From an uncultured cyanobacterium (GTDB lineage: Bacteria; Cyanobacteriota; Cyanobacteriia; PCC-6307; Cyanobiaceae): a stretch of 46,150 nucleotides of DNA. Below are positions 145-4,045 of this stretch, one piece after another. The notes beneath the pieces are model-generated. The model did not search any database. It saw only the letters and a list, made by a program, of their open reading frames with translations, and was not told the DNA's origin. Within the stretch, counting starts at the first letter, position 1. Every line of letters begins with the position of its first letter. Position numbers and translations under genes: made by a program. The DNA is taken from contig CAIOGZ010000027.1 in NCBI GenBank assembly GCA_903858015.1, forward strand, positions 1 through 46,150. Direction: 5' to 3'.

Positions 145-1122
145 TTGTCCCGGCCCCTCTCTCGTCGCCAACTGTTGATCAGCGCTGGCACAGGGTTGGG
201 GGTGGTTCTTGGTGTCATTGCTGTAAAAAAGCAGCCAAAACCCGCCAAAGCAATCCCCAATTCCACCACCACCTGGTTGGTGCGGCAGGGGGATCGCTGG
301 GAGAAGAAAACGAAGCCTATCGAGGTGCAGGAGTATCGGGAAGAGCTAGCGCAGGGTGTGGCGCTTACCATGGTGGAAATTTCCGCAGGGAATTTCCTGA
401 TGGGTTCGCCCTCGGGTGAAGAGGGTAGATATGATAATGAGGCACAGCGCCTAGTCACTGTGCCGGCATTTTGGATGGGACGCTTCCCGATCACCCAGGC
501 CCAGTGGAAGGTGGTGGCCGGGTTGGAGAAGGTGGAGCGAGAACTTATTGCCGATCCGTCAAATTTCAAGGGGCCAGATCTCCCGGTGGAGCAGGTAAAC
601 TGGCACGATGCGATCGAATTCTGCCGTCGCCTCAGCATGCATACGAGGCGAAACTACACCCTTCCCAGCGAGGCCCAGTGGGAATACGCCTGCCGGGCGG
701 GCAGCACCACCCCATTCCATTTCGGGGAAACCCTTATCACCGAGCTGGCCAATTACGATGGCAATTACACCTACGGCCAGGGCCCAAGAGGGGCCTACCG
801 CAGGCAGCCCACCGATGTGGGCAACTTCCCCGCCAACGCCTGGGGTTTGCAGGACATGCACGGCAATGTCTGGGAGTGGTGTCTGGATCGTTGGCATCCT
901 TCCTTGGCGAAGGGACCCACAGACGGCAGCGCCTGGCAGGAGCCGGCGCCGGAGTTGGCCAAGGACGATCAAGATAGGCGGCTGCTGCGCGGCGGCTCCT
1001 GGCTCGACTTCCCCGGGGGCTGCCGCTCGGCCTCCCGCTTCCACAATCAGCCCGGCGGTGCCGGCGACGACGTCGGTTTCCGTGTGGTCTGCCTCCCCCA
1101 GGACCCTTCCCTCAACCCTTAA
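145..1122 (+). CDS. Tat-targeted SUMF1/FGE-sulfatase-domain protein; candidate DGR variable protein
   Basis: This 325-residue protein starts with a twin-arginine type signal (SRRQLL at residues 6-11, hydrophobic to about 26), so export or membrane anchoring is likely. Residues about 75-320 form a formylglycine-generating-enzyme fold (PF03781), with an MGS motif, W-x-x-A-x-x-FC, LP-x-E-x-QWEYACR, a DMHGNVWEWC block (about 236-246), LRGGSW (281-286) and GFRV (311-314). The C-terminal region has one Cys (293) where true FGE enzymes carry a catalytic Cys pair, so sulfatase activation is unlikely. The C-terminus is shaped like the variable ligand-binding region of retroelement-diversified proteins (see 982-1086). 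The start is a TTG at 145. An upstream ATG may have been removed by the IS end at 136. The exact function is unknown. Confidence 0.85.
   Translation: MSRPLSRRQLLISAGTGLGVVLGVIAVKKQPKPAKAIPNSTTTWLVRQGDRWEKKTKPIEVQEYREELAQGVALTMVEISAGNFLMGSPSGEEGRYDNEAQRLVTVPAFWMGRFPITQAQWKVVAGLEKVERELIADPSNFKGPDLPVEQVNWHDAIEFCRRLSMHTRRNYTLPSEAQWEYACRAGSTTPFHFGETLITELANYDGNYTYGQGPRGAYRRQPTDVGNFPANAWGLQDMHGNVWEWCLDRWHPSLAKGPTDGSAWQEPAPELAKDDQDRRLLRGGSWLDFPGGCRSASRFHNQPGGAGDDVGFRVVCLPQDPSLNP
982..1086 (+). repeat. Candidate DGR variable region, copy 1 (VR1)
   Basis: This 105-bp segment aligns without gaps to 2623-2727. The first 21 bases, the CRSA codons (1021-1032) and the last 12 bases (1075-1086) are identical. 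Between these anchors 22 bases differ, 20 of them at codon positions 1 or 2. In 13 of the 22, one copy has adenine. In an adjacent 60-bp block of the same two genes (841-900 against 2494-2553), 9 of 14 differences are at position 3. Replacement-only change between fixed anchors is the mark of adenine-directed mutagenic retrohoming. No template repeat is present in the window. Confidence 0.6.
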
Positions 1123-2742: not shown

Positions 2743-3133
2743 GGCCCTACCCTGAAGCCGTAACCCCTCAATCTGCATAGCTATTGTGCCTACTACGGTT
2801 TTGTGACCAACGGTCCTAGATCAAGGCAAAGCCATCCTCCAGCTATGGCTTGGTGTTGGCAACCTAAATCCGAGTACTAGGCGGAGCATGGCATCACGCC
2901 GATCAGGACCTACCCCATTGCGGAGGTGCGCTCACTGCTAGACAGGCACGCTGCCTAGGCGGCCTGGCACCCGATTGAGGCCCGTCCATCACTTCAAGCC
3001 GTCGGTCTCCCCTGCGTCTCGCCTGCACCGCACCTCCGGCTGGCCTGCGCCTGGCCTCCGGCTCGCCTGCGCCTGGCCTCCGGCTGGCCCGCCGCCTAAG
3101 CTCGACGCTTGCAGACCGATACGGAGTAACCCC
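2743..3133. other. Gene-poor stretch with decayed coding traces and a tandem repeat
   Basis: No intact gene is seen. In one plus-strand frame, 2887-2958 reads EHGITPIRTYPIAEVRSLL and DRHAA up to a TAG, with another TAG just before it at 2878-2880; around 2790 a different frame reads YYGFVTNG. These look like fragments of a gene broken by stops and frameshifts, which I cannot name. 3033-3090 is a 22-bp tandem repeat, listed separately. The region leads into the FkbM gene. Confidence 0.4.
3033..3090. repeat. 22-bp tandem repeat, 2.6 copies
   Basis: CCTCCGGCTGGCCTGCGCCT plus GG occupies 3033-3054. It is repeated with one change (3055-3076) and then partially (3077-3090). It is non-coding and lies just upstream of the methyltransferase start. 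Confidence 0.8.
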
Positions 3134-4045
3134 ATGCTGAAGCGATTTCTTGGGGATTTGGCGCAGAGGACTGCCCTTCAAAGGGGCATAAAATGGTATC
3201 AAAAAAAGGTAAACTACGTAAAGAAAGTGCGCATCAATGGCGCTGAGATTCGCATCCCATCAATCCATGGGATCTGCTGCAATCCAACTGAGCCCTGGAT
3301 GATTGACCTGCTCGCCAACGTGCTCCAAAAGCGATCCGGCGCATTTCTTGATGTGGGGGTCAATGTTGGGCAAACCCTAGCCAAAGTCAAGGCCCTTGAC
3401 CCCGACAGAGAGTATATTGGCTTCGAGCCAAATCCCACCTGTGTTTCCTATGCTCAAAATCTCATCAATGCAAATGCATTCAAGAATTGCACCCTAATTC
3501 CCGTAGGCCTGTTCTCAAAGGATTGCGTCTTATCCCTAGATTTCTATTCCGATCATCCCGAAGACTCTTCGGCCTGCATGATTGACAACTTCCGGCCAGA
3601 TAATAAAATCTATTCTCGCGCTTTTGTTCCCGTTTTTCAATTTAATAGCTTGATCAGCATTCTGGGAGAGAAATCTGTTGGCATCGTAAAAATTGATGTT
3701 GAAGGAGCTGAGCTTGAGGTTGTGAAGAGCCTTTTGGACTTAATAAGGCGCGACAAGCCGATCATCCTGATTGAGCTGCTGCCTGTTTATTCAAACGACA
3801 ATACTTTTCGAAAAGATAGGCAAGATGAATTGGAGCGAATTTTTGCGGATATAGACTATGCAATCTTACGGGTTGAGAAGACGCCGTCCAACGCCTACTC
3901 AGGCTTGAACCGTATTGACGAGATAGAAATTCATTCCGATTTAAGCCGGTGCGATTATGTGATTCTCCCCAGCGCCCAGCTCCTTGAGCTGCAACCCAGG
4001 CGCGATACGCCTGCCAACAAGGCGCCGAGCATGCTCGTCAGCTGA
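3134..4045 (+). CDS. FkbM-family methyltransferase
   Basis: The 303-residue protein has a class I SAM-dependent methyltransferase fold of the FkbM type (Methyltransf_21). FLDVGVNVGQT (71-81) is the glycine-rich SAM loop, IGFEPNP (about 95-101) is the acidic end of strand 2, and KIDVEGAE (about 186-193) is the FkbM signature. Relatives O-methylate sugars, lipids or polyketides, and a glycan role would suit the sugar genes nearby, but the substrate is unknown. The ATG at 3134 was chosen because the longer frame back to 2975 runs through the tandem repeat. Codons such as AAA, ATT, TTT and AAT are far more frequent than in the neighbours, suggesting recent acquisition. Confidence 0.85.
   Translation: MLKRFLGDLAQRTALQRGIKWYQKKVNYVKKVRINGAEIRIPSIHGICCNPTEPWMIDLLANVLQKRSGAFLDVGVNVGQTLAKVKALDPDREYIGFEPNPTCVSYAQNLINANAFKNCTLIPVGLFSKDCVLSLDFYSDHPEDSSACMIDNFRPDNKIYSRAFVPVFQFNSLISILGEKSVGIVKIDVEGAELEVVKSLLDLIRRDKPIILIELLPVYSNDNTFRKDRQDELERIFADIDYAILRVEKTPSNAYSGLNRIDEIEIHSDLSRCDYVILPSAQLLELQPRRDTPANKAPSMLVS

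Follow-up and report, generated by a model that had tools for sequence, protein, structure and literature searches.

The window analysed here is the entire contig C27 (46,150 nucleotides) of a 3.84-Mb genome assembled in 100 contigs, with an estimated completeness of 99.93%. Other contigs of the same genome are given below as C1, C18, C20, C26, C71, C95 and so on, and a contig of a relative genome as, for example, G007:C74. Near its left end, the window carries a plus-strand gene at positions 145 to 1122 in the open reading frame list, a frame of 325 aa with a putative start codon. An FGE-sulfatase/SUMF1-type domain spans residues 75 to 315 of the 325 (Pfam PF03781, E=2.7e-52), and a segment at the 3' end of the gene (positions 982 to 1101; core 985 to 1086) has its core inside this domain. 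The protein also matched TvpA of Treponema denticola (2y3c), a solved variable protein of a diversity-generating retroelement (DGR) and likewise of the FGE/C-type-lectin type, at E=6.4e-20, although TvpA is only a distant relative and PvdO and other FGE-like proteins outside DGRs match equally well or better. A search of PADLOC gave no match at E<=0.01. Further along the plus strand, positions 2422 to 2742 encode a second, truncated copy of 106 aa, which keeps only the end of PF03781 (profile positions 163 to 253 of 255) and includes a counterpart of the 3' segment at positions 2623 to 2727.

The surroundings of the two copies include repeats. Positions 1 to 140, which reach the contig end and adjoin the target gene, form a dispersed repeat with copies 88 to 95% identical in G015 (C34, C5 and C15) and G039:C8. 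This repeat and the 26-aa frame at the left end may be transposase-like, and the frame had no Pfam match. Downstream of the target gene, positions 1280 to 1394 match many congener contigs, such as G024:C6, G039:C42 and G007:C14, and therefore also represent a dispersed repeat. A 292-aa frame lies between both copies on the minus strand (1443 to 2321), without a Pfam match at E<=1; its end has what we take to be a resemblance to a sorting tail. An FkbM methyltransferase follows at positions 2975 to 4045 (PF05050, E=8.4e-11).

In a preliminary description of the window, both copies had been read as DGR variable regions (VRs) from their mutual comparison, and recomputation reproduced the underlying counts exactly. 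As seen in the alignment, 982 to 1086 and 2623 to 2727 match over 105 bp without gaps, with the same anchors and CRSA codons in both; the 22 differences fall 9, 11 and 2 times at codon positions 1, 2 and 3, and one copy has adenine at 13 of them. In an upstream block (841 to 900 against 2494 to 2553), position 3 accounts for 9 of the 14 differences. The description had also placed the reverse transcriptase (RT) and the template outside the window, and this agrees with our searches, since RT matches in the genome are limited to C26, C18 and C1, and the two copies are the sole template-plus-handle matches on C27. When the genome was searched at the DNA level with the window segment, related segments at E<1e-7 appeared on C1, C20, C95, C18, C6, C48 and C88, as well as on C27. 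The template itself, of the right length, was located at C1:31321-31422, a non-coding, asparagine-codon stretch that translates to 34 letters and is followed by an RNA handle. Of the 102 bases of the window core, 19 deviate from this template, and each of the 19 lies at a template adenine (hypergeometric p=3.3e-15, for sites taken to be independent and after choosing, for each VR, the best among 15 templates). The relic behaves differently, with 15 of its 19 core differences at template adenines and 4 elsewhere, and its 3' boundary has diverged. Judged by its sequence, the second copy is thus a truncated, decaying relic and not an equal partner of the first, so the DGR reading is supported for the first copy, and the second appears to be a former VR.

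Five sister genes on contigs C1, C20 and C95 carry segments that match the same C1 template, and their differences from it likewise fall at adenines (C95c, 16/16; C1a, 14/14; C1b, 16/16; C20a, 17/17; C20b, 16/16). Pooled over the six VRs, 98 of 98 differences lie at template adenines, and no mismatch was found in 6 x 76 (456) non-adenine cells. The template has 26 adenine sites, of which 25 occupy the first or second codon position, and a stop codon cannot arise from any change of an adenine. Two of these sites are fixed in the six VRs, with G in all at core site 70 and T in all at core site 92. Summed over the adenine sites, the six VRs hold A 58 times, T 48, G 46 and C only 4, a strong skew against A-to-C changes. 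The gene bodies are far more divergent than the VRs at non-adenine sites: protein identity is 59 to 67% in 14 of the 15 pairs (90% for C1a and C1b), and fourfold sites differ at 18/78 to 34/58 (23 to 59%). The presence of clean VRs on such diverged bodies indicates that a single source rewrote the VRs well after the genes themselves had separated.

As a control, we used an FGE gene on C71 that is not DGR-like. It differs from the template at 42 positions, 23 of them not adenines, and it is also enriched at template-adenine sites (19/42, p=1.6e-4). Enrichment at adenines alone is therefore weak evidence, and the weight rests on the absence of other differences. The full comparison covered 35 VRs and 15 templates from 8 genomes; measured against the best template of its own genome, a VR had no non-adenine difference in 16 cases, one in 4 and two or more in 15, counts that refer to these 35 and not to every FGE gene. 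C6, C71, C95:3483, C48, G009:C139 and the FGE genes on C14, C17, C34 and C92 were left out for their other length, for want of a motif match or for their use as a control. Overall, these comparisons indicate that 982 to 1101 is almost certainly the VR of a remote DGR target gene, apparently rewritten from the C1 template (source interval C1:31318-31440). Among the C1 sister targets, one encodes a 1279-aa protein with WD40 repeats ahead of the FGE domain (L059, 7214 to 11053), which suggests that the variable domain has been joined to diverse functional partners.

The 3' side of the window VR was compared with the template and with the other targets. Identity with the template extends across positions 1087 to 1101, and the GC-rich stretch 1077 to 1101 on the plus strand equals the template except at one fixed site, A in the template and T in the VR. 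By analogy, this stretch is probably an initiation-of-homing (IMH)-like boundary, and the T at core site 92, present in six of six VRs where the template has A, probably marks the homing boundary. Immediately beyond it, positions 1102 to 1169 on the plus strand are common to the six target genes, as seen in an alignment of their downstream flanks, and are absent from the template; this flank is a possible cis element for homing, or it may mark the spread of a module. Further 3', a short GC-rich, hairpin-like sequence (GGCGCC-GCA-GGCGCC, 1225 to 1245) was seen by eye in the alignment downstream of five or six target genes, at a distance that varies.

DGR-type RT genes are indeed present elsewhere in the genome, in different states of preservation. 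On C26, an avd gene is accompanied by an RT with the motifs IGNLTSQ and YVDD, by its own different template and by a 1191-aa target that combines NACHT/NB-ARC-like and FGE domains; all 13 differences between this target and the C26 template are at adenines. Aligned with BPP-1 brt, the C26 RT shows 34% identity across 92% of its length (E=1e-35); no other intact DGR RT was found in the genome. C18 has a whole avd (NF033474, E=1.3e-25, above the cut-off, as is PF22296), and its Avd is 59% identical to that of C26; the C18 RT, in contrast, is cut off at YLRYV, beyond which come the final bases of its own template, so that both the RT core and the template are lost. On C1, the template and handle are whole, Avd is truncated, and the RT consists of N- and C-terminal remnants from which the catalytic core is gone, so that no intact RT was found in the cassette of the matching template. 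Relative to G007:C74, whose avd may itself be shortened, the C1 avd-RT region has deletions of ~120 bp, 7 bp and ~640 bp. Over 92 aa, the C1 remnant still shares 88% identity with G007:C74, a level also seen in its functional relatives (87 to 88%), and its private changes fall 3, 2 and 8 times at codon positions 1, 2 and 3 in 276 bases; both features suggest that the RT was lost recently. The earlier view that the machinery acts from elsewhere thus stands for the location of the parts and has to be amended for the RT, since the one adjoining the matching template is broken and the writer is either a different intact RT or one since lost.

The sequence that follows the template appears to be a conserved structured RNA. 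Sixteen template-following sequences of the genus share one structure of 22 pairs, 6 of them with changes on both sides, and 99.1% of cells are paired, compared with 31 to 48% in slid controls. None of 500 shuffles reached as high a covariation score, a test favored by the derivation of the structure from the same alignment. Rfam gave no match at gathering thresholds in the two loci searched (L070 and L056). Handles of the C1 and C26 types are 79 to 89% identical, while their RTs share 64 to 68%. These raw identities hinted at an exchange of handles between RT lineages, an idea that the trees do not support, since the two B subtypes fall together in the RT tree and in the handle tree alike. 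A published analogue of the handle is the spacer of BPP-1, which, in the part of the paper available, folds and recruits RT-Avd (PMC12875486).

DGR components of this kind also occur among the relatives. In the genus, an RT match at E<=1e-10 occurs in 8 of 42 genomes and a handle match at E<=0.001 in 10 of 42; of 300 genomes sampled across the family, 8 match the handle model and 6 have an RT at E<=1e-30. Intact avd-RT-template-handle cassettes with near-identical templates exist in congeners (e.g., G001:C34, G018:C58 and G015:C9). We also observed template-handle segments with no RT match on their contig in G000:C95, G009:C85, G018:C13, G034:C75 and G088:C14, for the last by the search at E<=1e-30 alone, and cassettes that lie 4 to 5 kb away from an RT in G007:C111 and G024:C83. 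The VRs of such RT-less or RT-distant cassettes give a mixed picture, with adenine shares of 12/12 (G034:C75), 5/6 (G024:C83) and 19/21 (G007:C111), but of 9/16 (G018:C13), 11/20 (G009:C85) and 14/23 (G000:C95, against its own template). Compared across species with its G024 orthologue, the window gene agrees at 675 of 752 body bases and at 69 of 102 VR bases. The orthologue's VR (L208, 4414 to 4515) fits best to another template type, that of G034:C157, with 14 adenine and 7 other differences; the orthologous body thus carries the VR and 3' end of another type, as if targets can change template.

As described above, the broken C1 RT leaves the identity of the writer to be weighed. We see an even chance that the six targets were written by the C1 RT before its recent deletion, and that nothing writes them now. 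The likeness of its remnant to functional relatives and a pattern of private changes unlike that of a long-dead gene agree with such a recent loss, as does the observation that RT-less cassettes elsewhere, including that of G018, often have VRs that are not clean. What speaks against it is that at least three separate avd-RT deletions have built up on C1, yet none of the 456 non-adenine VR cells has changed.

That same cleanliness is accommodated if the intact RT-Avd of C26, a sister DGR type, recognizes the similar C1 handle and still writes the six dispersed targets, a reading to which we give slightly less than an even chance. It would account for VRs that stayed clean despite the C1 deletions by the only intact DGR RT found, acting on a handle better conserved between the two types than the RTs are. 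Three C18 VRs, whose template is lost, carry a few non-adenine differences, unlike the six clean VRs, and the RT-less cassette of G034 has a clean VR. On the other hand, G018 has only the other RT type and its RT-less cassette is not clean, nor are those of G009:C85 and G000:C95, and the concordant RT and handle trees give no sign of handle exchange.

It is very improbable that the organism has an intact C1-type RT that is missing or collapsed in the 100-contig assembly; draft status and repeated DGR sequences on several contigs would allow for it, but the estimated completeness is high and a C1-type query found no further RT fragment in the genome. Ordinary divergence of two FGE-family paralogues with loops variable in every member, although the LRGGSW...CRSA...GFRV frame is also found in non-DGR FGE proteins such as PvdO and the C71 control is partly enriched at the same sites, is hardly credible and is ruled out by that control and by the non-coding template with its handle and RT remnant, given VRs without a single non-adenine change on bodies of 59 to 67% identity.

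Returning to the reading of the window segment as a remote VR, the process may be envisaged as follows. The C1 template repeat and the structured RNA handle that follows it on the 3' side would be transcribed jointly. An RT-Avd complex, whether of the C26 type or one since lost, would copy the template RNA with errors at adenines, and the mutated cDNA would replace the 3' end of the target genes, including that of the window gene.

Several elements of this arrangement are already known from cyanobacteria and other bacteria, at least in the available parts of the sources: remote targets in the former (PMC7517822), and diversification in trans together with degenerate loci (PMC10907252). The cyanobacterial remote-target DGRs of Vallota-Eastman et al. 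2020 (PMC7517822) resemble the present one, as far as that text is available, in their C-type-lectin-fold (FGE-like) targets with the VR at the 3' end and in having several remote targets per genome, tied to the DGR by template homology; unlike those systems, the cassette with the matching template here has no working RT. In Thiohalocapsa PB-PSB1 (Dore et al. 2024, PMC10907252), the accessible sections likewise describe several DGR types per genome, degenerate loci without RT or template, a NACHT-type target, and targets that match a distant template at all non-adenine sites. There, however, both variation within the population and an intact locus belonging to that class support action in trans, whereas the matching class in the present genome lacks an intact RT. 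Bordetella phage BPP-1 (PMC12875486, in part) shares the homologous RT, Avd, a template followed by a structured spacer, and adenine-directed changes; it differs in that the order here is avd-RT-template-handle and the targets are dispersed, and no stem-loop is established just after the VR.

A large DGR survey looked for repeats around the RT, according to the part available (PMC8144416), so that RT-less template cassettes such as those described above would go unseen. A literature search for 'diversity-generating retroelement' with 'Cyanobium' returned nothing beyond PMC7517822, and the term 'nonautonomous' had 0 occurrences in the portion of the literature searched, with reports elsewhere possible in both cases. 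The cyanobacterial RT clade is described as almost exclusively multicellular (63 of 64 characterized species) in the accessible part of PMC10907252, and the survey in PMC7517822, in its available text, reports an enrichment of DGRs in filamentous taxa and their absence in the unicellular genera Synechococcus and Prochlorococcus. The window, in contrast, belongs to a DGR network with several targets in a unicellular, Cyanobium-like picocyanobacterium. Since the template is naturally set apart from a working RT, cross-recognition through the RNA handle is directly testable in this case. We tentatively suggest, as a possibility that we favor less than its converse, that the RT-less template-target cassettes of these picocyanobacteria could be non-autonomous elements, whose conserved handle would allow a single RT, if need be from a different DGR lineage, to diversify many dispersed genes in trans.
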